Origin: an uncultured Flavobacteriaceae bacterium
Lineage (GTDB): Bacteria; Bacteroidota; Bacteroidia; Flavobacteriales; Flavobacteriaceae
Length of the DNA stretch: 53,592 nucleotides
Reading direction: 5' to 3'
Assembly: GCA_947494205.1 (NCBI GenBank)
Contig: CANLUH010000026.1
Location: forward strand, 1-53,592
Shown here: positions 532 through 23,413 of the stretch, in pieces
Position numbering within the stretch: position 1 is the first letter of the stretch
Layout of the letters: every line of letters begins with the position of its first letter
Program-made: the position numbers and the translations under genes
Notes under the pieces: generated by a model
Told to the model about the DNA's origin: nothing
Database searches by the model: none
What the model saw: only the letters and a program-made list of their open reading frames with translations

Positions 532-610
532 AATCTTTTAAAACGTTACATGAAATTTGAAAAAAGTTTTGATTTGGTGTTTAGCGTAGTTGTTTGTTAC
601 TAATAGAGTT

Positions 611-1192
611 TTATTTCGTTATATATTTTTCAAACTCTAGTTTTTCTATTGTCTCTATTATAGTTGGTTTTTCGGATTTCAGTTTTCCAGTTTTAGTAAT
701 GGAAGTACTTTTATCATTCGGTTTCTCAATAAAATATTCAAAAGTATTATTTCCGTAATTGTATTTCGACCAAGCAAATGTTCCTTTCCTTTTTTCGTTC
801 TTATAGTAATCTGTTTCAGATTTTGCATTTAAAATCCCATATTCGATAACCTTTTTAAAATGTCCACTTGTTGGTTTAGATTTCCACCAATACGTTGTAT
901 ATTTTCCAGATTGGGTTTCATTTTTTTTCCAATCTGTTGTTAATTTAGGTATTCCAAGTTTTTCACGTTCAGAATTAAATTCAAGCCCGTGATTTGTATT
1001 TAAAGGAATAAAAAACTCTGAAATTATAATACTTAATATAATATAAAAATATGCTTTGTTTTTTTTCCAATACTTTTTAAATAAGTCTTTTAATGGCGCT
1101 TTACGCTCTTTGTTCCAATTCCAAATTAAGAAAATTGGCATTGAAATTAAAAAAATCATTAATATTCCAAAAAAGAAGTAGTGTCCGTTCAT
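611..1192 (-). CDS. hypothetical protein with two N-terminal membrane segments
   Basis: I do not recognise this 193-residue protein. Hydrophobic helices are visible at about residues 5-24 and 48-63, separated by a strongly basic loop. The remaining 125 residues are soluble, rich in Lys, Tyr and Trp, and contain an aromatic KYTTYWWKSKPTSGHF stretch. Such Trp/Tyr/Lys-rich tails are common in accessory-region hypotheticals of this phylum. Its ATG lies directly behind the stop of a short in-frame extension of the next gene upstream, so the two may be co-transcribed. No function is proposed. Confidence 0.6.
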   Translation of the reverse strand: MNGHYFFFGILMIFLISMPIFLIWNWNKERKAPLKDLFKKYWKKNKAYFYIILSIIISEFFIPLNTNHGLEFNSEREKLGIPKLTTDWKKNETQSGKYTTYWWKSKPTSGHFKKVIEYGILNAKSETDYYKNEKRKGTFAWSKYNYGNNTFEYFIEKPNDKSTSITKTGKLKSEKPTIIETIEKLEFEKYITK

Positions 1193-1255
1193 TTATATTA
1201 CTGGTTTTCTATCTAAATCGCTGTATGGATAATATCCTTTTTCTTTAAATAATTC

Positions 1256-1876
1256 TTAATTTCCAACGTAATTAGATTCTTTAATTTCTATATTTCCTAT
1301 TTTTTCATTTTCAATATTAATTGAATACCAAACCCTCCATTGATTCCCAGTATCAGGAACATTCAAGTCAGAAGTCAAGTAAATAGTATTTCTAGAAATA
1401 CTATCAATTTTGGTTGACAAAAGATTGCATTCAGTATAAAATTCAGGAATTAGTATTTTCTCAAAGTTTGTTCTGTCGATTTGCTTTTTGTCAGCAAATG
1501 AGTTAGTAAAAAGTTTAAAATCAGTTACCATTTTGTGAGAATGGTCTAAATATACTTGTTCTCTGTTTGAGGCTAAATTCCTAACAATAGAACTATCATT
1601 TAAACTATAAGTTTTTAATTCAAGTACGTGTTTTAAGTCATAAACTTTAAATTCTTTCTTACTTGAAATAGTGTCAAGAATTAAAGCCCAATAATTATTA
1701 ATTGTATCCTTTACCTTTTTTACTTGAATAGTTTCTAATTCAATTTTTGGTTTAAATTCTATTTCCGTTTTTAAGTCTGGTTTTTGGTCAAATTTAGATT
1801 TGATTTTGCTCGACTTTTTTTGGTTGCAACTTGATATAATCGAAAATATAAATATTAAAATTAGGAGTTGTCTCAT
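1256..1876 (-). CDS. hypothetical lipoprotein
   Basis: The 206-residue product begins with a lipoprotein signal (MRQLLILIFIFSIISSC, Cys17 as the acylation site), so it should be anchored in the periplasm or outer membrane. The mature part starts with a Lys-rich linker and has no family I recognise. After the TAA at 1256-1258 the same frame continues for 20 codons (ELFKEKGYYPYSDLDRKPVI) to a second TAA at 1193-1195, immediately before the ATG of the 611-1192 gene. That tail looks coding, so this copy may carry a premature stop and the ancestral product may have been about 227 residues. Confidence 0.6.
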   Translation of the reverse strand: MRQLLILIFIFSIISSCNQKKSSKIKSKFDQKPDLKTEIEFKPKIELETIQVKKVKDTINNYWALILDTISSKKEFKVYDLKHVLELKTYSLNDSSIVRNLASNREQVYLDHSHKMVTDFKLFTNSFADKKQIDRTNFEKILIPEFYTECNLLSTKIDSISRNTIYLTSDLNVPDTGNQWRVWYSINIENEKIGNIEIKESNYVGN

Positions 1877-1891
1877 TGTTCAGTTTTCAAC

Positions 1892-2029
1892 TGTTTGGTA
1901 ACGGTTTTGTATATAATTTCGTTGCATATTTCGGGAACTAAATTAACAAATAGAAATTGAATAGAAAATTCGAGAAGATTTTAGAAATAGAGGAGAAGGA
2001 ACAATTACTTTTGGCTAGTGTTACAAACA
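1892..2029. repeat. imperfect palindrome, copy A of the accessory-region repeat
   Basis: The left arm TGTTTGGTAACGGT (1892-1905) pairs with the right arm AGTGTTACAAACA (2017-2029). The left arm runs on into GGTTTTGTATATAATTTCGTTGC, matching copies C and E (AACGGTnTnGTATATG). It fills the whole spacer between two minus-strand genes. Confidence 0.6.
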
Positions 2030-2033
2030 ATAT

Positions 2034-2960
2034 TTATCCTTTAATTTTCTCCTTTTTAAAGTTAATTTGATTTTTCGGTTCTTCATCAATTTGAATTGAC
2101 TTAAAATCACCTTTTCTCATAAGCTTTTTCATTTCTTTATATACTTCAAAACTACTCCAAAAATCTCTACTTAATTTACCATCATTAATCTCTTTATTAA
2201 TTAAAGGTTTAAAATAATTCCAAACATAATTATCTTCTCCGTATGTTTCTCTTTGGTGCCATAATATTATCCAAGCTCTTTCTTGCCAACCGTGTTTTTT
2301 TGTTATTTCCATTAATCTTGCAAGATTCAATGAGTCAACTTTTCTCATAAGTTTAGAAGTTGTTGCTTTGTGTTCCTCTTTTATTTTATGAAATAAAATT
2401 TTCTTTAACTCTGTTGCTTTCGCAATATTATTTAACTTCATCGCTTTTTGATATTCTATTCCTGCATTTTGAAAGTCAACTTCGCTGTAACCATCTAAGT
2501 ATATTCCGGTTTTTCTCACAAATTGATCTCTTGCGGTCAATTCCTCTATCTTCAAGTACAAATCTATATCGTCAATGGTCGAGAAGTAATCTTGCCGAAG
2601 TTTATTATAATCTGATACTATATTTTTATAAAAATCTTTTTCCTGAATTTCTGTAAATCCTTTATAGTTTTTTAAATAACTTTTCTGTGCACCTCCAACT
2701 GAAATCCCTTTTCTTATCCATTCATCTGCAAGGGGCAAATCATTTAAAATTAAAGCACATTCTGCTAAATTAAAAAACGGAGTACTAGAATTCGGAATTA
2801 GTATTTCTAGCGCATTTTTGTATTTCAAGATAGCCTGTTCACAGTTTCCGTCTTTTCTATGGTTATTAGCTTCTGAAATTAGTTTATCGTATTTATCATA
2901 TTTTGTTTGTCCATAGCTTAGAGACGAAATGATAAATAGAAATAGGAATGTTTGTTTCAT
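2034..2960 (-). CDS. exported TPR-like hypothetical protein
   Basis: The 308-residue protein has a cleavable signal peptide (MKQTFLFLFIISSLSYGQ). Helical pairs follow at about residues 25-90 that look like tetratricopeptide repeats: a CEQAILKYKNALEI helix, then TPFFNLAECALILNDLPLADEWIRKG in shorter form. TPR arrays normally scaffold protein contacts. The C-terminal two thirds is helical and charged, without a family I recognise. It lies between repeat copies A and B and is probably transcribed alone. Confidence 0.6.
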   Translation of the reverse strand: MKQTFLFLFIISSLSYGQTKYDKYDKLISEANNHRKDGNCEQAILKYKNALEILIPNSSTPFFNLAECALILNDLPLADEWIRKGISVGGAQKSYLKNYKGFTEIQEKDFYKNIVSDYNKLRQDYFSTIDDIDLYLKIEELTARDQFVRKTGIYLDGYSEVDFQNAGIEYQKAMKLNNIAKATELKKILFHKIKEEHKATTSKLMRKVDSLNLARLMEITKKHGWQERAWIILWHQRETYGEDNYVWNYFKPLINKEINDGKLSRDFWSSFEVYKEMKKLMRKGDFKSIQIDEEPKNQINFKKEKIKG

Positions 2961-3066
2961 GTTGTATGTAACTGTTTTGTATAATCGTCAGTTACAGATT
3001 AAATTAGTGATTATTTTCGGAATAAGCACAAGCCAGACTTTTAAAATTTTATTATCTATTTGTCAT
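2961..3066. repeat. repeat copy B, truncated by an IS200-like element
   Basis: The left part reads GTAACTGTTTTGTATAATCG, like copies A and E. Further in, TTTTCGGAATAAGCACAAGCC is nearly identical to TTTTCGGATTATACACAAGCC in copy E (7611-7631). The right arm is missing because the IS200-like element begins directly after it. Confidence 0.6.
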
Positions 3067-3070
3067 TGAA

Positions 3071-3598
3071 AAACCACCGTCTTTGACGGTGGTCATGTTT
3101 TAAAGGCTCTGTACCATTATTTAGCTTTGCTGATCTAAAACTTTTTAAGATGAGTAAATATGTGTATTACAAATGTGACTATCACATTGTATTCACACCC
3201 AAGTATCGTTTTCAGATACTTGAAGGAATGATTAAATCTTTGGTAGAACACGATTTGCAATTAATCAGTTCATGGAAAGATGTTCAAATTCTTGAGTTGA
3301 ATGTTCAAAAGGACCACGTTCATTTGGTCTGTTCGATTCCTCCTAAGATTTCAATTTCTGAGTATATAGGTATATTGAAAGGGAAAATGGCAATCAAACT
3401 TTTCAAAACATACCTAAATTTAAAACAGAAGCCGTATTGGGGCAATCATTTTTGAGCAAGAGGTTATTTTGTAAGTACAGTAGGTTTAGATGAAGCTATG
3501 ATAAGGCGATATGTCAAATATCAGGAACATCATGAATCGTTATGACCCTTTGGGTCTAATCTGAAAACCAAAGCCACCGTTTTTAACGGTGGTTTTTT
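3071..3598 (+). mobile_element. IS200/IS605-family element (IS200-like, tnpA only)
   Basis: The element is bounded by two subterminal hairpins of related sequence: ACCACCGTC-TTT-GACGGTGGT at 3073-3093 on the left and CCACCGTT-TTT-AACGGTGG at 3574-3592 on the right, the latter followed by six Ts. Such hairpins are the recognition ends of single-strand IS200/IS605 transposition. A third hairpin (GACCC-TTT-GGGTC) lies at 3544-3556. Only tnpA is present, as in the IS200 group. The exact outer bases are uncertain by a few nucleotides. Confidence 0.85.
3150..3545 (+). pseudogene. tnpA: IS200-like transposase TnpA, interrupted by a premature TGA
   Basis: The frame encodes a typical Y1 HUH transposase of 131 codons. 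Residues 1-101 include the HUH motif (DHVHLV, about residues 56-61) and the family sequence PPKISISEYIGILKGK. At 3453-3455 a TGA replaces the Trp codon expected in the conserved GNHFWARGYF. The frame then continues with ARGYFVSTVGLDEAMIRRYVKYQ to a TGA at 3543-3545. The catalytic tyrosine lies in that lost tail (RRYVKYQ), so the product should be inactive unless the stop is read through or the base is a sequencing error. Confidence 0.85.
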
Positions 3599-3730
3599 AC
3601 TTTTTAGGGCATTCAAATACCTCATACTTCGGTTTCTACATAAAATTTGTTCAGTTTTATGAAGTCTTAGACTTCGATTTCAAGTTGTTGAATTTGTAGT
3701 AGATAGGATCTTTATAATCCTTTTTTGTGT

Positions 3731-3790
3731 ATGACTAAGAATATAAAATATTTTGAACTTGATGTTAGTAAAGATGTCTTTGATGTTTGA
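3731..3790 (+). pseudogene. remnant of an IS110-family transposase N-terminus
   Basis: From ATG 3731, 19 codons give MTKNIKYFELDVSKDVFDV, matching the start of IS110/IS1111 DEDD transposases (YFGLDVSKDVFDV type), including the first catalytic Asp in LDVSK. A TGA then ends the frame and no further transposase-like sequence is visible downstream on either strand. The rest of the 425-base stretch 3546-3971 holds only the IS200 right end (to 3598) and AT-rich sequence in which I see no gene. Confidence 0.5.
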
Positions 3791-3971
3791 ATAAGTTATT
3801 AAAACAAGCCTTTTCTATAGTTAAAAAATGGAATACCTTATTGTAACGATTACAGAAGTACTTTAGTTAAAAAACTTAATTTTATTTGTTTTTGCCTCTG
3901 TTCTTTGTTTCCTACTGGCTTTTTCAACCTTAATTAGTACTTACAGTAGTAGAACTAGCTGATTAAATTTT

Positions 3972-4403
3972 TTATGGGATTAGAATTACATAATCTTGAA
4001 TTACCAACCATTCATTTTTAATTTTTACTAGAGAATAAAAATTCTTTAGTGTTGGTTTTCTTGGACTTGTAAGGGTGGCTTTTATGGTAGCCATATGTTT
4101 TCCTATAAACTGAATATCTTCAAAAGAAGCAGTTCTTATATATCCTCCAAATTTTTTAGTTTCTATAAAAGAAATATAGGTTGATTTATCTAGAATAGAT
4201 GTTTTATCTTTTTTCTTATCATATAAGACTACTCTAAAATCATTATGTAGATGAGGCTTTAGTTTTTTTACATCATTTATATCTCCAGCTTGTATATATA
4301 ATTCTAAGGTTGATTTCACATCACTTGTGTCGTTATTTTGAGCATTGGATTGACAAGATAATAAGCTAAATAAGGCTAAAAAGGTAAAAATTTTTGTTTT
4401 CAT
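3972..4403 (-). CDS. NTF2-like (DUF4440/lumazine-binding type) lipoprotein
   Basis: The 143-residue product begins with a lipoprotein signal (MKTKIFTFLALFSLLSC, Cys17). The rest has the shape of an NTF2-fold protein: an N-terminal helix DVKSTLELYIQAGDINDVKKL, then alternating strands ending in NFYSLVKIKNEWLVIQDYVIL, typical of the 'putative lumazine-binding' or DUF4440 families. Such folds can bind small ligands or act as enzymes; no substrate can be inferred. It lies 58 bp downstream of a MarR regulator on the same strand, with a shared operator motif before each gene, so it is probably that regulator's target. Confidence 0.7.
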   Translation of the reverse strand: MKTKIFTFLALFSLLSCQSNAQNNDTSDVKSTLELYIQAGDINDVKKLKPHLHNDFRVVLYDKKKDKTSILDKSTYISFIETKKFGGYIRTASFEDIQFIGKHMATIKATLTSPRKPTLKNFYSLVKIKNEWLVIQDYVILIP

Positions 4404-4432
4404 GATTTTAAGTTTTATAAATTATTTAATAA

Positions 4433-4448
4433 AGTTAGCTAGACAACT
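4433..4448 (-). promoter_or_regulatory. predicted MarR operator before the NTF2-like lipoprotein gene
   Basis: AGTTAGCTAGACAACT is an imperfect palindrome (AGTT...AACT) about 30 bp upstream of the 3972-4403 start codon. It differs at one base from the site at 4908-4923. MarR-family proteins usually bind 16-20 bp palindromes of this kind. Confidence 0.6.
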
Positions 4449-4461
4449 AAATATACAAAAA

Positions 4462-4887
4462 TTAGTGGTCTAAGTTTTTTCGGATTTTTTCTAGAATAAT
4501 CCTAATGTTTTCTTTTTCGGTTTTAGATAGTTCATTTAAACCTGTTAATCGAATTTGTTCAATAATTGGATATAGGTTATTAATCAGTTTTTTTCCTTTT
4601 TTGGATATAGATAGTTCAGCTTTTCTAGAATCCTTAAAAGAGGTAGTTTTTATAATAAATTCTTTTTTCTCTAATTGATTTACCATTCTTGAGATTGTAG
4701 GTTTATCTTTTACAAGCTTTTCTCCAACATAAATTTGATTAGTATATTCGTTTTCATTTATTACATTTAATACTAGCCACTGTTCAATAGTAATGTCAAT
4801 TCCTTGAGATTTAAGAACATTTTGGCCATATTGTCTAATTCTTCTCGCGGTAAGTTCTATTTGAAAGTAAGTATTATTATTAATCAT
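4462..4887 (-). CDS. MarR family transcriptional regulator
   Basis: This 141-residue winged-helix protein has the MarR layout: an N-terminal dimer helix (residues 5-25, LTARRIRQYGQNVLK), the DNA-recognition region at about 55-75 (VKDKPTISRMVNQLEKKEFI), then the wing with its conserved Asp-Arg pair as KDSRKAELSISKKGKKL, and C-terminal dimer helices. MarR proteins typically repress themselves and a neighbouring gene and release DNA on binding phenolic ligands or on oxidation. No cysteine is visible, so thiol-based sensing is unlikely. Operator-like palindromes precede both this gene and the downstream lipoprotein gene. Confidence 0.9.
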   Translation of the reverse strand: MINNNTYFQIELTARRIRQYGQNVLKSQGIDITIEQWLVLNVINENEYTNQIYVGEKLVKDKPTISRMVNQLEKKEFIIKTTSFKDSRKAELSISKKGKKLINNLYPIIEQIRLTGLNELSKTEKENIRIILEKIRKNLDH

Positions 4888-4907
4888 AATTCAAATATAG
4901 TAAAATT

Positions 4908-4923
4908 AGTTAGCTAAACAACT
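4908..4923 (-). promoter_or_regulatory. predicted MarR operator, autoregulatory site
   Basis: AGTTAGCTAAACAACT lies 20 bp upstream of the marR start codon and matches the site at 4433-4448 in 15 of 16 positions. In context it reads TTAGTTAGCTAAACAACTA with TAGTT/AACTA half-sites, so self-repression is likely. Confidence 0.6.
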
Positions 4924-4965
4924 ATTTTTTATTATATGTTATAAACATTTTCTTTATACTTATAG

Positions 4966-5100
4966 AAAACGGTTTCGTATATGGAAAGTTACGTGTTTGT
5001 GTACGAGGGTTTTTCGAAGGAAAAAATCAGAAGCTAATAAAAGAAGCAACTCCCATTTGTTATGCACAAAACAGCAATTTTTTATATAAAATGTTGTACC
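4966..5100. repeat. imperfect palindrome, copy C of the accessory-region repeat
   Basis: The left arm AAAACGGTTTCGTATATGG (from 4967) resembles those of copies A and E. The right end TATATAAAATGTTGTACCC (to 5100) is its approximate complement. The spacer separates marR from the cytochrome c gene. Confidence 0.6.
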
Positions 5101-5106
5101 CAGTTT

Positions 5107-5544
5107 TTATTTTAAATATCCAATTAATAAATTCAATTCTTTTTCTGTAAAATTGAAATTATGTATTGTTCCATTATTTCCCCAAAATTCTTTTATTTTC
5201 AAAGCATATTCATCTTTTGCCTTTAATAACGAATCTTGTTTGGTTAAATAAATTTTTAAATAATCAGTTCCGACTTTTTCCACGATTCCAGAAAGATAGT
5301 TGTGTTTCATATTTTTTGAAACGTGACATTTTCGGCAATCTTTCATAAAAATTTCTTTTCCAAGCTCAAACTCAGGTGTTGTCTTTGCAATTTTGATAAC
5401 TGTTGGTTGGAAATCACTATTCTTTTGGTCAAATTCCGTAATTCCGTTTTTTTTAATCACAAAAATAAAAAGTCCGACGAGTAAAATCAAAATTACACTT
5501 AAGGCAATTAAAATCCGAAGTATGATTTTTTTTTGGTTATTCAT
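5107..5544 (-). CDS. membrane-anchored monohaem cytochrome c
   Basis: The 145-residue protein has one N-terminal transmembrane anchor (about residues 8-31) and a periplasmic domain with a single haem-c attachment motif CRKCH (residues 70-74) preceded by FELGKEIFMKDC, the usual helix of small class I cytochromes c. The sixth haem ligand is unclear: the Met in SKNMKHN or the His in TIHNFNF are candidates. The C-terminal FTEKELNLLIGYLK matches the closing helix of cytochrome c domains. It probably carries electrons at the periplasmic face of the inner membrane. It stands alone between repeat copies C and D, unlike respiratory cytochrome operons. Confidence 0.8.
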   Translation of the reverse strand: MNNQKKIILRILIALSVILILLVGLFIFVIKKNGITEFDQKNSDFQPTVIKIAKTTPEFELGKEIFMKDCRKCHVSKNMKHNYLSGIVEKVGTDYLKIYLTKQDSLLKAKDEYALKIKEFWGNNGTIHNFNFTEKELNLLIGYLK

Positions 5545-5565
5545 TTAGGTTTTCGTTTTCTGAAA

Positions 5566-5660
5566 TTGGTTACAATGAGAGCTGCTATGAGCTGTTTTTA
5601 TTGTGAAGATACTGAAAGTTCTTCATAATAGTAATGACTTATAGCCGTGTTGGCAACTGG
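5566..5660. repeat. short imperfect palindrome, copy D
   Basis: TTGGTTACAATGAGAGC (5566-5582) roughly pairs with GCCGTGTTGGCAACTGG (5644-5660). The GTATATG core is absent, so membership of the same family is tentative. The right end TTGGCAAC resembles the TTGCCAGT end of copy E. Confidence 0.4.
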
Positions 5661-5669
5661 TTTATTTTG

Positions 5670-6239
5670 CTACATATAAAAATATTTCCAAAGCCAAATT
5701 CCAGAATAGTTTGTAAAACACATGTCATTAATTTTAAATACTTGAATTCTATCTTCTGGTAACGGATTGATTTTTTCTCCTTTCATCATTTGTTGGAGGA
5801 GGTAGGATTTTTCTCTAAACCAATTCTTTTTTTGTCCAATAGCAGTTGCATTGATTTTTAAATAATCTTTATTTTCTTTTATTTCCGCTATAATTTCATC
5901 AAAAAAACCTTCGCCTTTATACTCGTCAGAACTCTCCTTATCAATCCATCCGTTTTCTTTTAGGATTTTAATTCCTTTATTTTCAACTGATTTATAATCT
6001 ATTTCTATTTCAAAGCTAATATCTAATAAACCGTATTTTGCAATAGTTCCTTCAATGTTGTTTCCTTTTGTAGATTTTACCTTAATGTTTAAGTTTTCTT
6101 CTATCAAGGATTTTATTTCATTTTCAATTTCTTCTCCTTTTTTCGAAATATCAATAGGAATTTCCATTCCAATGTAATTTTTGATTGAATGATATTTTAA
6201 TTCAGTATTTATTGTTCTAAATAGGCGAATTTTATTCAT
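5670..6239 (-). CDS. hypothetical protein
   Basis: The 189-residue product has no signal peptide or membrane helix, so it is probably cytoplasmic. It is rich in Lys, Glu and Ile, with a predicted helix at about residues 33-50 (KKGEEIENEIKSLIEENLN), a beta-rich middle, and an aromatic C-terminus (YSGIWLWKYFYM). I recognise no family. It sits between repeat copy D and the IS3-family element, in the same orientation as the other cassette-like genes. Confidence 0.55.
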   Translation of the reverse strand: MNKIRLFRTINTELKYHSIKNYIGMEIPIDISKKGEEIENEIKSLIEENLNIKVKSTKGNNIEGTIAKYGLLDISFEIEIDYKSVENKGIKILKENGWIDKESSDEYKGEGFFDEIIAEIKENKDYLKINATAIGQKKNWFREKSYLLQQMMKGEKINPLPEDRIQVFKINDMCFTNYSGIWLWKYFYM

Positions 6240-6294
6240 TAAGGAATGATTTTTACTGTCTAGTCCTGAAATATGGCTACAGGTTAAAATTGAA

Positions 6295-7164
6295 TTAAGC
6301 TGATAATTTATATACCATATTAGGTGTTTTATAATTTAAAGATAAGTGTAATCTTATTTCGTTGTATAAATTAATTGCATTTTTTGTAGCTCTTTTTGCG
6401 TGAGCTACGTTTGTAAAGGTTTGATCTAGATAAAATTCATCTTTTAAAATTCCATTAACTCTTTCAGCGATTGCGTTTTCGTAGCAATGATTTTCTTCAG
6501 TCATGCTGATTCCTATTTTCTTTCTTTTAAGAATTTGTGTGTATACATTACTACAATACTGTATTCCTCTATCTGAATGATGAATAAGTTGTTTAATTTC
6601 CTTTGCTTGATATATCGCTTTATTAAGGGCTCTAACACAACCTTTAAGTTCTAAACTATCACTAAGGTCGTATCCCACGATTTTACGAGAATACATGTCT
6701 GTAATTAAAGCTAGGTAACAAAACCCTTTTACTGTTCTAATGTATGTTATATCCGATACCCAAACTTGATTAGGCTTTGTAATTTCTAACCCTTTTATAA
6801 TGTTTCTGTGCTTGTAAAACCTATGGTGTGAATTTGTAGTTTTCATACTATATTTTTTTCTAAGCGTAAGCATTTTGTTTTTTCTAAGTACCTTGAATAA
6901 AGTGTCTCTACCAACGCTTAGGTTTGCTTTAGTAAATTCTTTATCTAATGATTTAACGAGTTTACGCACACCTTCTCTGGGAAGGGATTTACGTCTTTTT
7001 CTAACTATGGTTATAATGTTTTGTTCTAGTTTCAAGCGTTTATCAACTCTGCTCTTATATTTATAATAAGCATCACGTTTTAATCCAAAACAAGAAGATA
7101 TTATAGCTAAAGAAGCAAATCCCTTAGATTTTTCCTTAGCTTTTATTAAGGCTTGATATTTAGT
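6295..7164 (-). CDS. IS3-family transposase OrfB (DDE integrase core), made by -1 frameshift
   Basis: This frame carries the HTH_21 region followed by an rve integrase core. The catalytic triad is visible as VSDITYI, HHSDRGIQY and NAIAERVNGILKDEF (D, D, E). The region between the second D and the E has the usual IS3 spacing. No ATG begins it; the frame is open upstream to the A9 run at 7164-7172. A -1 slip there would fuse it to OrfA, as in IS150 and IS911. Translation through the junction gives KKKTKYQALIKAK, continuous with the family. A TTG at 7033-7035 is a possible but unlikely internal start. Confidence 0.9.
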   Translation of the reverse strand, partial: TKYQALIKAKEKSKGFASLAIISSCFGLKRDAYYKYKSRVDKRLKLEQNIITIVRKRRKSLPREGVRKLVKSLDKEFTKANLSVGRDTLFKVLRKNKMLTLRKKYSMKTTNSHHRFYKHRNIIKGLEITKPNQVWVSDITYIRTVKGFCYLALITDMYSRKIVGYDLSDSLELKGCVRALNKAIYQAKEIKQLIHHSDRGIQYCSNVYTQILKRKKIGISMTEENHCYENAIAERVNGILKDEFYLDQTFTNVAHAKRATKNAINLYNEIRLHLSLNYKTPNMVYKLSA

Positions 7165-7517
7165 TTTTTTTTAAGTTGCTGTACATTTTTATATCCTAGT
7201 TTTTCGGCAGCTACTTCCAGATACGATTCATCTACCATTGCATCGAGGTCTTTTTTAAGTAATAGTTTTTTAAGTTGAGAAATCTCTTTCTGAAGTGTTT
7301 TAATACGTGTTATTTCGTCTTTGGTTTCCACTTTTACTCTAGTATTCATTAAGTCTTTGCGTTGGTATTTTTTAATCCATTCATTAACTGTTGTTGGAGC
7401 TATGGAATAGAGCTTGCAAAGTTCGCTCTTAGTATATTTTCCAGTACTAAGTTCGGCTAAAATTTTTAATTTAAAAGGTTCGTTGTAACGTCTAATTACT
7501 TTGTCATTTCTGTACAT
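7146..7517 (-). CDS. IS3-family transposase OrfA (HTH_Tnp_1)
   Basis: The 123-residue protein begins RRYNEPFKLKILAEL and contains a helix-turn-helix (YTKSELCKLYSIAPTTVNEWIKKY, read in two halves) followed by a leucine-zipper-like helix (ITRIKTLQKEISQLKKLLLKK), the normal OrfA layout for end binding and multimerisation. Near its end CTT is followed by nine As (minus strand of 7164-7172), then CTAAATATC. This is the programmed frameshift site that yields OrfAB. The gene looks intact and the element may still be active. Confidence 0.9.
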   Translation of the reverse strand: MYRNDKVIRRYNEPFKLKILAELSTGKYTKSELCKLYSIAPTTVNEWIKKYQRKDLMNTRVKVETKDEITRIKTLQKEISQLKKLLLKKDLDAMVDESYLEVAAEKLGYKNVQQLKKKLNIKP

Positions 7518-7566
7518 AATATTTAAAATTATGTAGCCTTTATTCAGGACGGGTCATAATTATGCA

Positions 7567-7755
7567 CAACGGTCTAGTATATGAAACGTAGCGTGTAAAT
7601 AGACACTAACTTTTCGGATTATACACAAGCCGAATTTTTATGTTTTGTTTTTATCTTTTCTATTCTAAAAGCCAAATTTAAAAATTTGGCGACTTTGCAA
7701 ATACACACGAACCTGTCAGAAAGCTTGTATTAGCTATGTTTTATATACATTGTTG
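7567..7755. repeat. full-length imperfect palindrome, copy E (best preserved)
   Basis: The left arm CAACGGTCTAGTATATGAAA (7567-7586, continuing CGTAGCG) pairs with the right arm TAGCTATGTTTTATATACAT (7731-7750, continuing TGTTG). An internal perfect hairpin GCCAAATTT-AA-AAATTTGGC lies at 7671-7690, and the TTTTCGG...ACAAGCC segment is shared with copy B. The whole is 189 bp and occupies the spacer between the IS3-family element and the channel gene. Confidence 0.7.
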
Positions 7756-7766
7756 CCAGTAGTGCT

Positions 7767-9164
7767 TTAGTACTTGTTTGTCGCAAAACCTGCAACTAAA
7801 AAACCAACATTCAAAACTCCAAGTAGCGATTCCAGAGTTGCCCCAATTCTAACTATTCCAGTCGGACTGTAATCTCCATAGCCTAAAGTTGTGAAAGTTG
7901 TTGAACTAAAATAAATACAGTCCCAAATTGATAATTCCGTAACACCACCGCTATTTAATAGGATATCAGTTCTATTGAACCAATACAATGAAGCAAATAA
8001 CAAAATCATAACTAATGAAAACCAAATGATTCTCTGAGGTTTTCTCCCATAGCCCCAATAATAGGCACTCAAACTTTTTGAAAAATATGACCAACCAGAA
8101 GTTTTATTCCGTTTAAAGTCCTGTTCTTTTACAAAATATTCAATCGCTTTATCATCATCTCCTTGTTCAGCATACGTTTTCTTTAAAAGCTGATAAGCAT
8201 TGAGATTATGATTTTCAATAGCCTTGTCCTTATGGATATTAACATCTAAAAAAGTACAACCTTGTATTACAGGTGAGAAAAGTCCGCCAGTTATATCCAC
8301 ATACCTGAATTGTGAATTCGTAAAATCTCCATTTATTCGACAATCGTAAAATTGCCATTGCTGAATTTTAGAATTCTCTATGGTCAAATTATTTATAGAG
8401 CAATGGTCAAATTTAAGAAGAGCCATATCTAAATTTTTGGCCTTCATATTGTCGCAAGCACAATATGAACAGCTTAAATTACCTTCTTCTCCAAAAGAAA
8501 TACGACCTTCCAGATTTAAGCCACATAGATTAACAAATTCCAATCTTTTACCACGCATTAAAATATCAAAACCATTTACGGGAATATCAATTCCTCCCAT
8601 TTTGAGTAATTCAAATTCTCTTGAAGAAGAATAAACATCAGAATGAATTGAAACCCTTTCTGAATCAAATCCAGGTGCAGTTCGAGAGTTTATATTTAAT
8701 ATGTTTTCAGTTTTTTGTCTGCGATGCAACCAATCTAAATAGGAATAAAACTCAAGAATTGGCTCAAATTCAAAATCTTGACCTAAATACTTTTCTTTAC
8801 CATTAAGTTTTTTATAAGAAACTATTGTTTTTATATTTCCGTTGCAGGTTTGTTTGGTTAAATAAAGTTTTCTTTTTTTTGACCATTTTTTTCGTTCGAG
8901 AAATGGTGATAGCTCGCCAGAATTAATAATGATTTCATTACTTAATTTTTGGTCGTTTTTCCATTCTTTAAATAATAGTAAATTAGAATCAAAATGACTT
9001 AATAATTTGGGGAAGTCGTGAAGTTGACGCCATTTTATGAAGTGTTCTTCGTCAAGCATCCATAAATCAATGATATCAGGGTTTGAGTTACCTTTTATCT
9101 TTTCAAAAAGGGTTTCAATACTTTCCTTTCTATCGATTAAGTGCTGTCTTCTAAATTCGTTCAT
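7767..9164 (-). CDS. two-TM ion channel protein with large N-terminal domain
   Basis: The C-terminal 100 of 465 residues form an Ion_trans_2 module: TM1 (about 370-390, IIWFSLVMILLFASLYWF), a pore helix with the potassium selectivity filter TTLGYGDYS (about residues 426-434), and TM2 (LESLLGVLNVGFLVAGFA). The N-terminal 360 residues look cytoplasmic. Residues of about 200-310 read like degenerate pentapeptide repeats (CGLNLEGRISF, NLDMALLKFDHCSINNLTIENSKIQQ), which fold as a right-handed helix. Pentapeptide-channel fusions are known in bacteria; what gates them is unclear. The gene is flanked by repeat copies E and F, so it looks like a unit of the accessory array. Confidence 0.8.
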   Translation of the reverse strand: MNEFRRQHLIDRKESIETLFEKIKGNSNPDIIDLWMLDEEHFIKWRQLHDFPKLLSHFDSNLLLFKEWKNDQKLSNEIIINSGELSPFLERKKWSKKRKLYLTKQTCNGNIKTIVSYKKLNGKEKYLGQDFEFEPILEFYSYLDWLHRRQKTENILNINSRTAPGFDSERVSIHSDVYSSSREFELLKMGGIDIPVNGFDILMRGKRLEFVNLCGLNLEGRISFGEEGNLSCSYCACDNMKAKNLDMALLKFDHCSINNLTIENSKIQQWQFYDCRINGDFTNSQFRYVDITGGLFSPVIQGCTFLDVNIHKDKAIENHNLNAYQLLKKTYAEQGDDDKAIEYFVKEQDFKRNKTSGWSYFSKSLSAYYWGYGRKPQRIIWFSLVMILLFASLYWFNRTDILLNSGGVTELSIWDCIYFSSTTFTTLGYGDYSPTGIVRIGATLESLLGVLNVGFLVAGFATNKY

Positions 9165-9173
9165 TCGGTTCGT

Positions 9174-9262
9174 GCATTACTGGCAACGTTAGTATATGCC
9201 AACCTTCTCAAATACTTACTGTTTTGTAGTGTATTTAAAGCGGTATATACCAACCTTTTCGT
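9174..9262. repeat. repeat copy F with duplicated TATATnCCAACCTT block
   Basis: ACTGGCAACGTTAGTATATG (9179-9198) matches the ends of copies D and E (TTGCCAGT and AACGnTnGTATATG). AGTATATGCCAACCTTCTC (9191-9209) recurs as GGTATATACCAACCTTTTC (9242-9260). This is the last repeat copy; conserved operons follow. Confidence 0.5.
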
Positions 9263-9272
9263 TGTTTTACAA

Positions 9273-9295
9273 ATAACCAAATACTAGTTGGTTAT
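9273..9295 (-). terminator. hairpin downstream of the sulfur operon
   Basis: ATAACCAA-ATACTAG-TTGGTTAT forms a perfect 8-bp stem about 120 bp after the stop of the 9413-9829 gene. No good T-tract follows on either strand, so it may be a weak terminator, an RNA 3'-end hairpin or an operator. Confidence 0.35.
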
Positions 9296-9412
9296 GAGCA
9301 CCTTTTTAATATAGTGTAAGTTCAAATATTCCTAACAGAAAAACAATACGTATATCTACGTATATTTTTTAACCTAAAAAGTGAAGAGAAAGTCTTATTT
9401 TCTTTAAAAAAC

Positions 9413-22294: not shown

Positions 22295-23413
22295 TTAGGC
22301 GTTAAGCATAACAGGCATAACTAACATAGTTACGTGTTCACCTTCATCTAAACCATCTATTGGTGTTAAAATACCAGCTCTATTTGGCATACTCATTTCT
22401 AATTGTACATCGTTTGCATTTAAATTGTTTAACATCTCTGTTAAAAAACGAGAGTTGAAACCAATTTGCATATCGTCTCCTTGGTAATCGCAAGTTAAAC
22501 GCTCTTCTGCTTTATTGCTGTAATCGATATCTTCTGCAGAAATATTTAATTCTGCTCCAGCTATCTTTAAACGAATTTGGTGTGTTGTCTTATTAGAAAA
22601 AATACTAACACGTTTTACAGAACTTAAAAACTGAGAACGCTCGATACTTAATTTATTAGGATTTTCTTTTGGTATAACCGCTTCGTAGTTAGGATATTTT
22701 CCATCTATTAAACGACAAATTAACACTGTGTTTTCGAATGTAAATTTAGCATTAGAATCGTTGTACTCAATGGTTACTTCTTCATCACTAGCCGATAAAA
22801 TTCCTTTTAACAGTGTTAAAGGTTTTTTAGGCATAATAAATTCTGCAACTTGAGACGCACTAACATCTTCGCGAGTATACTTTACTAATTTATGAGCATC
22901 TGTAGCAACAAACGTTAAGTTATCTGTAGAGAATTGAAAGAAAACACCACTCATTACAGGTCTTAAATCATCGTTACCAGCAGCAAAAATAGTTTTACTA
23001 ATGGCAGTTGCTAAAATATTTCCAGCAATAGTAGTAGAACTTGGGTCTTCTAAAGCAACAGCTTTTGGAAACTCGTTTCCATCTGCATATGCTAAAGCAT
23101 ATTTACCGTGATTAGAGCTTATTTCTACCGTATTGTTGTCTTCTATAACAAACGTTAACGGTTGCTCTGGGAATGTTTTTAAAGTGTCTAATAATAAACG
23201 TGCAGGAATGGCAACGCTACCAGTACTATCACTTTCTATATCTAAAACAGAAGACATTGTTGTTTCTAAATCGCTTGCTGAAACAGTTAATTTAGAATTA
23301 TCAATATCAAACAAAAAGTTATCTAAAATAGGTAGTGTGTTCGAACTATTAATTACGCCTCCTAAAACTTGTAATTGTTTTAGTAAATAAGTACTCGATA
23401 CTATAAATTTCAT
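22295..23413 (-). CDS. dnaN: DNA polymerase III beta subunit (sliding clamp)
   Basis: The 372-residue protein matches the usual length of bacterial beta clamps. It begins MKFIVSSTYLLKQLQVLGGV and contains three repeated clamp domains, with recognisable segments IPARLLLDTLKTFPEQPL, DDLRPVMSGVFFQF and FVATDAHKLVKY (domain 2). The C-terminus LVMPVML is the usual end. It encircles DNA and tethers polymerase III. It is monocistronic on the minus strand, with a 218-bp upstream region. A single near-match DnaA box (TTATCAACA, 23537-23545) lies there, too little to call an origin. Confidence 0.97.
   Translation of the reverse strand: MKFIVSSTYLLKQLQVLGGVINSSNTLPILDNFLFDIDNSKLTVSASDLETTMSSVLDIESDSTGSVAIPARLLLDTLKTFPEQPLTFVIEDNNTVEISSNHGKYALAYADGNEFPKAVALEDPSSTTIAGNILATAISKTIFAAGNDDLRPVMSGVFFQFSTDNLTFVATDAHKLVKYTREDVSASQVAEFIMPKKPLTLLKGILSASDEEVTIEYNDSNAKFTFENTVLICRLIDGKYPNYEAVIPKENPNKLSIERSQFLSSVKRVSIFSNKTTHQIRLKIAGAELNISAEDIDYSNKAEERLTCDYQGDDMQIGFNSRFLTEMLNNLNANDVQLEMSMPNRAGILTPIDGLDEGEHVTMLVMPVMLNA

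Follow-up and report, generated by a model that had tools for sequence, protein, structure and literature searches.

A putative integron-like cassette array lacking an adjoining recombinase in a Flavobacteriaceae genome, and related arrays headed by a tyrosine recombinase

What kind of system places genes of unrelated function one after another on the same strand, each followed by a similar palindrome? The question is raised by positions 541-9305 of contig CANLUH010000026.1 from an uncultured Flavobacteriaceae bacterium, which was analysed as a single window of 53,592 nucleotides (nt). A first-pass annotation, made from the sequence of the window, had marked six palindrome copies (A-F) between minus-strand genes, likened the arrangement to an integron cassette array or another gene-capture system, and kept a miniature inverted-repeat transposable element (MITE) as an alternative. 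All six copies exist at the positions it gave, including the doubtful D, which is a real element with a similar sequence, recognized by eye, at L013:7920-8030. The comparisons described here indicate that the region is very probably an integrase-less piece of an integron-like Flavobacteriaceae system that works like an integron. The system is called integron-like because its recombinases lack the insert specific to the integron integrase IntI and its sites, with one exception, do not have both standard cores. The window genome (5.06 Mb) is referred to as G000, its contigs as C2, C3, C20 and C23, and two congeners as G195 and G199.

The free circle of an integron cassette carries one palindromic site, so the start of an inserted cassette is expected to pair, across the gene, with the bases before its own R'' box, and the other flank of the same site need not match. 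Intact units in the window run from CG|TT to CG|TT, and their starts are complementary to their own ends and not to those of the neighbour. The start of the first cassette, TTGCCAGTAATGC, agrees with the reverse complement of its own end, TTGCCAGTAGTGC, at 7/7 positions of the variable arm. Same-cassette ends match at 7/7 positions for F-E, 6/7 for D-C and 6/7 for B-A, and the flanks across one site at 3/7 (E), 3/7 (D), 2/7 (C) and 4/7 (A); the ends of the C-A interval match at 2/7. Complementarity with the own end and not with the neighbour is the signature of circular cassettes. The comparison was extended with R1, a covariance model built from seven copies of the same genome, window copy A included. 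Six variable bases were compared at 164 R1 hits (E<=0.1) from 25 sources. All six matched in 75 of 140 same-cassette intervals (66 of 84 when the interval was shorter than 1.5 kb) and in 4 of 151 comparisons across one site. At least five matched in 81 intervals; the corresponding figures for 2000 shuffles are 8.2 on average and 18 at most. The longest open reading frame (ORF) followed the array direction in 186 of the 203 cassettes that have an ORF of at least 40 amino acids (aa).

Read in gene orientation, which is the minus strand in the window, a cassette site begins with xxxYAAC-N3-L box and ends with L'-N6-G|TT. Among 141 distinct R1 sites with both cores, the L boxes fall into complementary sets, with GTGTAT/ATACAC in 62, GGCTAT/ATAGCC in 16, GTATAT/ATATAC in 16 and GTATAA/TTATAC in 15, and 88.7% of the L cells pair, versus 11-55% when slid by 1-4. 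A set of 237 cassettes with matched ends was selected on at least 5/6 matches at positions 1-6. Positions 9 and 10, which lie outside the selection, are complementary in 215 and 226 of them with all four pair types, and position 8 is C-A in 210, a combination that turns into a G-T wobble when the other strand is folded. When DNA of the circular form is folded, the strand opposite the genes (the bottom strand) is more stable in 120/120 cassettes sampled from the 237. In a second sample of the same 237 it is more stable in 100/100, compared with 25/100 for mid-cassette sequence and 76/100 for dinucleotide shuffles, with mean stability gaps of 4.6, -1.0 and 1.2 kcal/mol, respectively; many sites are related, so these folding and pairing counts are not independent. 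Composition accounts for part, not all, of the strand bias. The computed structure thus has the hairpin with R and L boxes, the asymmetric unpaired spacer and the favoured bottom strand of an integron site. Its cores do not follow the integron standard: RYYYAAC is present in 16/367 sites, GTTRRRY in 16/367 and both in 1/367, which bears out the remark of the first-pass annotation that the arms misfit.

Signs of possible movement come from repeated cassettes and from congeners. A cassette of ~562 bp occurs at 10 places in genome G014, after nine different preceding site ends, and the identical stretch typically opens 2 nt ahead of one crossover and closes 2 nt beyond the following one. Duplicated units that end at crossovers consist of a gene and its site, and the palindrome alone is not the mobile unit, as it would be for a MITE or a repetitive extragenic palindromic (REP) element. 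Both congeners have the genes that flank the window array, at 76-83% DNA identity, and neither R1 (E<=1) nor the arm scanner detects an element at this locus in G195 or G199. Gain or loss of cassettes may be reflected in the locus without elements in 2/2 congeners and in the cassettes repeated in different contexts; in a further empty-site comparison, at L011, only one flank is orthologous. The orthologous locus holds a gene for a PhoD-like phosphatase in G195 (L077:16891-18630) and an equally long ORF in G199. This gene is missing from the corresponding place in the window and was not sought elsewhere in G000. At the distal array end (540-551), homology with the congeners crosses a native CG|TT (543/544) and ends at ~551, ~7 nt past it; this CG|TT is possibly a secondary insertion site.

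The first-pass annotation saw no integrase, and indeed none is visible beside the window array; in relatives, a tyrosine recombinase heads many such arrays. Ten arrays were fetched initially, and the recombinase lay upstream in those from G113, G121, G159 and G084; a fifth sequence was taken from L034 of G076. With a threshold of E<=1e-70, the profile of these five recombinases hits 125 of 199 genomes; G195 has one match and G000 none. Forty further recombinase loci (730,732 bases) were chosen by hand from the match list in two batches of 20. The first batch covers 18 genomes and was taken near list order, with room for flanks and without regard to sites; two listed loci were skipped, and it includes two more copies in the discovery genome G159, one of them with a recombinase identical to P0003. 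Scanner sites are present at 19 of these 20 loci (17/18 without the G159 loci), always downstream and on the strand of the recombinase, and the contig of the site-less locus, L150, ends 206 bp past the gene. Several loci of the second batch were picked with R1 hits already known nearby, and it therefore gives no unbiased count. Its eight higher-scoring loci repeat the downstream, same-strand pattern. Among its 12 lower-scoring loci, six have a divergent array on the other side, as classical integrons do (L173 by R1 only), two are co-directional (L165, and L175 of G195) and four have no sites, three of them with a contig end within ~1 kb. A strict version of the arm scanner accepts 185 sites across the 40 loci and 3 in the reversed sequence, and the fetched arrays have up to 30 detected sites, all on one strand within each array.

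An attI site lies beside many of these recombinases, with the first cassette joined to it at G|TT. Of 34 loci, 24 have an attI start, defined as TT plus 6/6 bases of the R'' of the first site, at a distance of 27-142 nt from the recombinase; when the hexamers are taken from other loci as a control, the mean is 0.3 and the maximum 3 (1000 shuffles). In the region downstream of the recombinase in L137-L164, several attI carry an almost perfect dyad directly ahead of the crossover, as in L141, where ATAAACGCACCGGTGCGTTTAT is followed by CCATATG|TT. Element F of the window, previously assigned as a copy of the palindrome, resembles these attI sites and is not a cassette site. It has an exact attI-like pattern at 9185-9206 and aligns with a site on C20 (L013:6440-6580) that adjoins a TypA-like gene, named by eye. 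Both align over ~120 bp with the recombinase-adjacent attI of L171, from another genus (G029), and have ATATACTAACGTT in common with it. No recombinase ORF adjoins F or its C20 counterpart. A search of 199 family genomes with the attI-like core of G000 returned two exact matches in G000 and one match with 2 mismatches in G151; the attI is therefore not conserved across genera at this stringency. Together, the complementary ends, the covarying L boxes, the recombinase and attI at the heads of related arrays, the near-identical cassettes whose identity ends at the crossover in different contexts and the element-free congener loci support the gene-capture architecture proposed by the first-pass annotation.

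The array recombinases can be compared with both IntI and Xer proteins. Alignments of sets of 5 and 13 show that the catalytic R, K, HxxR, H and Y are kept, as in XerA, XerC and XerD. A further likeness to these proteins is the match to NF040815 ('site-specific tyrosine recombinase/integron integrase'), which ranks first or nearly first among the NCBIfam models matched; its cut-off is exceeded by 4 of 15 array recombinases, and the model does not discriminate because the XerD of G000 also passes. The array recombinases differ from XerC and XerD in that they sit at the heads of cassette arrays and branch apart: in a tree that used two Xer rows, and for which the program warned of long branches, they separate together with four IntI-type rows from the XerC and XerD of G000 (100/99). 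The IntI rows are monophyletic (100/99), and their placement among the array recombinases is not resolved by this tree. The distance from the catalytic K motif to HxLRH is 64-71 residues in 44 of 45 array rows (the motif was not found in L161), versus 105-107 in IntI1 and two integrases from phage records (the motif was not found in the fourth IntI-type row). The array recombinases thus lack the ~40-residue insert that forms the additional domain of IntI. The alignment of IntI4 (PDB 2a3v) with P0003 is split into two pieces by the same gap, and TIGR02249 matches 15 array recombinases in two stretches at 181-209 bits, under its cut-off of 265. Many of them have an SPLD-like C-terminus, as IntI does. 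Many, such as P0001, P0002 and P0004, also carry an N-terminal region of ~100 residues (~1-110) with a conserved WS...Y, for which no Pfam match was obtained in the members tested and which is absent from others, P0003 included.

The following mechanism is proposed. Element F would be the attI-like platform site, and A-E would be attC-like cassette sites, with B truncated and D altered. Each cassette would consist of a gene followed by its own site and, when free, would be circular, with the site folded from one strand. The folded site is predicted to have an R stem of ~10 pairs with a fixed mismatch, a 3-versus-6-nt unpaired spacer, a 6-bp L box and a variable top. The tyrosine recombinase, whose gene adjoins attI in relatives, would act at CG|TT and link cassettes either to attI or to one another. 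From sequence comparison we infer recombination itself, the role of this recombinase in it and the folded bottom strand as its substrate.

Several observations weigh against this interpretation. The ends of the E-D interval, which is interrupted by an insertion sequence (IS), match at only 2/7 positions, and intervals of at least 1.5 kb mostly mismatch (9/56 reach 6/6), probably owing to site types inside them that R1 misses. Of the 193 long duplicated stretches, only 27 lie with both ends no more than 5 nt from a crossover, a proximity that holds for 0.3% of positions; the other duplicated stretches are not bounded by detected sites at both ends. A recombinase was present within the stretch taken for only 4 of the 10 fetched arrays. 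Ten of the 34 loci have no 6/6 attI start within 150 nt: a 6/6 start lies at 170 nt in L153 and only farther away in L146, L158, L161, L164 and L168, and a 5/6 start lies nearby in L143, L149 and L155. The low-scoring locus L166, with no nearby contig end, has no sites by the strict scanner. Lastly, no array-type recombinase was found in G000 with the profile at E<=1e-70; two of its arrays end at contig edges, and an assembly gap is possible.

Three other explanations can be set against the same evidence. The array could be the remnant of a classical integron, that is, a cluster of attC sites lacking an integrase (CALIN), with standard attC sites formerly served by a canonical IntI. The cassette logic, the attI and the bottom-strand folding bias would be the same, and the window array resembles a CALIN in having sites without an adjoining recombinase. 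This explanation is very unlikely in view of the single site in 367 with both standard cores, the K motif-HxLRH distance that falls short of that in three IntI, and the TIGR02249 match that is split in two and under cut-off; the window also differs from a CALIN in its attI-like site. MITE- or REP-like repeats lying by chance between genes, moved for instance by a Y1 or REP-associated tyrosine transposase (RAYT), would likewise be palindromic and multicopy, and an IS200-type element is indeed present in the array. This explanation is highly improbable in view of the arms that covary across a whole gene within the same cassette, the duplicated units that can be gene plus site, the sites on one strand per array and the tyrosine recombinase at the head of many loci; the MITE-like alternative of the first-pass annotation is accordingly disfavoured. 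That co-directional, operon-like genes are simply separated by terminators or RNA-processing hairpins would agree with sites that follow genes and fold strongly. This is scarcely credible when the more stable strand is opposite the genes in all 100 sampled cassettes, the complementary bases lie on either side of the gene and not on either side of the hairpin, and the orthologous locus in congeners has no site.

Given an integron-like system, is the array in the window still active? At E<=0.01, R1 detects 24 elements in G000, 19 in G195 and 4 in G199. If no more than 1 mismatch is allowed, the left-arm pattern AACGGTNTNGTATATG has 10 occurrences in the whole genome (5.06 Mb), versus 3 for the reversed pattern; three occurrences are inside the window (1900, 4968 and 7568), and the pattern leads to further arrays, which lie on C3 and terminally on contigs C23, C2 and C20. 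A single right-end pattern has no matches in G000. Contigs C23 (end of L009) and C2 (end of L010) finish in identical sequence adjoining a site; the assembly therefore breaks at cassette arrays, as expected at repeats, and further cassettes or a recombinase may be unassembled there. Because no such recombinase was found in G000, the window array probably represents a stranded remnant that retains an attI-like site and whose recombinase would have been lost or would never have adjoined it. It seems rather unlikely that the array is still active and served in trans by XerC/XerD, by a 344-aa recombinase on C3 or by an unassembled integron integrase. Activity in trans would fit the two attI-like sites and 24 elements at several G000 loci, the C23 and C2 arrays that terminate at contig edges, and the recombinase beside an array in G195. 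It is opposed by the failure of the recombinase profile to match G000 at E<=1e-70, by two insertion sequences inside the window array and by the divergence of its sites: B is truncated, the core of D is altered, and the strict scanner accepts E only, a sign that the other copies are diverged.

Coordinates of the window features are collected in Table 1. Apart from the R1 matches listed there, part of E matches at E 0.48, and a stretch outside the array region, 23253-23368, matches at E 0.28. No intact site is seen at the end of the distal part. PADLOC returned only weak helix-turn-helix (HTH)-type matches in the window, to the MarR protein.

Table 1. Features of the array region, from the attI-like site to the distal end
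Feature	Position	Strand	Remarks
attI-like platform site F	9187..9305	-	Direct repeats AAGGTTGGYATATA, core CATATACTAACG|TT; crossover between 9186/9187
Cassette 1, 1617 bp	7570..9186	-	Ion-channel gene + attC-like site E
Cassette 1 gene, 465 aa	7767..9164	-	Ion_trans_2; weak Pentapeptide_4, below cut-off
attC-like site E	7570..7754	-	Strict scanner, left arm, fold
IS3-type insertion, two ORFs	6295..7517	-	rve + HTH_Tnp_1; within E-D interval
189-aa gene, no assigned function	5670..6239	-	In IS-interrupted E-D interval; start/end 2/7
attC-like site D, short type	5576..5651	-	Crossover core altered to CA|TT
Cassette 3, 606 bp	4970..5575	-	Cytochrome c-like gene 5107-5544 (Cytochrom_C) + site C; start/end 6/7
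attC-like site C	4970..5095	-	R1 match 4968-5097, E 0.015
MarR-family gene	4462..4887	-	Interval after C
Lumazine_bd_2-like gene	3972..4403	-	Interval after C
IS200-type element cutting B	3067..3600, outer limits approximate	+	Y1_Tnp ORF 3150-3455 +; repeats D18/I3
attC-like site B, truncated	2972..3066	-	Repeat family D1; cut at ~3067 by IS200-type element
Cassette 5, 1070 bp	1902..2971	-	308-aa gene 2034-2960, no assigned function, + site A; 6/7
attC-like site A, type-1 family	1902..2022	-	R1 match 109 bits, E 4e-17; training copy
Distal part, genes 611-1192 + 1256-1876	541..1901	-	

Related elements are common in the family. At E<=0.001, and with no more than 17 candidates per genome scored, R1 has matches in 157 of 199 family genomes (198 genera). 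In a sample of the phylum it matches 24 of 198 genomes at E<=1e-5, of which 11 belong to the same family, 4 to other families of the class and 9 to other classes. A pattern scan of named genomes yielded at least 118 stretches, where single exact pattern matches are weak evidence. Most among the matches listed are from Flavobacteriaceae, including Winogradskyella, Psychroserpens, Polaribacter, Tenacibaculum, Maribacter and Aquimarina, and some are from Bacteroidales, Saprospiraceae, Melioribacteraceae and metagenome-assembled genomes labelled WOR-3, Atribacteria and Caldisericales. A related recombinase is also encoded on one plasmid each of Chryseobacterium and Pontibacter, and the small genes that come after it are mostly co-directional. 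Complementary-end pairs number 7 on the Chryseobacterium plasmid and 2 on the Pontibacter plasmid, overlapping candidates included, with none in reversed controls; no site is detected by R1 in the Pontibacter stretch or by the strict scanner in the Chryseobacterium stretch. The array-like stretch of the Chryseobacterium plasmid (L309) also holds an IS110-family transposase and a group II intron, and relatives of both kinds of element target attC sites. On a plasmid of Acinetobacter indicus, tet(X3) is immediately preceded, in line, by a recombinase with 52% identity to P0003 (L308:5052-7073). The notion that tet(X3) is a cassette of such a system is not supported, because the stretch tested has no complementary cassette ends.

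Integrons have been thought very rare in Flavobacteriaceae. The system described here shares with integrons and sedentary chromosomal integrons (IntI-attI-attC) the one-strand array of co-directional cassettes with complementary ends, the attI at its head, sites with R and L boxes, an unpaired asymmetric spacer, a variable top and a bottom-strand folding bias, and the G|TT crossover. It differs in that its recombinase lacks the IntI-specific insert, its cores are not RYYYAAC/GTTRRRY, its higher-scoring recombinases precede attI when the array is read in the cassette direction, and it is common in Flavobacteriaceae. In the chromosomal integrons of Treponema, intI is likewise transcribed toward attI in the cassette direction (PMC3607928). 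The R' given for one Treponema site, GTTAGGT, fits the standard core, which sets it apart by description and not residue by residue (PMC3607928). No description of flavobacterial cassette arrays was found in the titles and abstract openings that searches of the open-licence PMC literature returned, a scope outside which preprints fall. A review counts Bacteroidota among the phyla with integrons, so that integrons are rare, not unknown, in this phylum (PMC8618304).

It is fairly likely that Bacteroidota carry an undescribed major branch of integrons, with a recombinase that lacks the IntI insert and often has an extra N-terminal region, relaxed-core sites that would fold as single strands, and large stores of cassettes that it has assembled on some plasmids and in the majority of Flavobacteriaceae genera. 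Such integrons would be missed by tools that require the IntI domain and standard attC cores. If the system is active, the rarity of integrons in Bacteroidota would be partly an effect of detection, since the detection method depends on the IntI-specific domain (PMC9668308). There would then be an alternative to the IntI insert, which has been described as necessary for activity, and a widespread family would have a reservoir of cassettes whose genes mostly have no assigned function.

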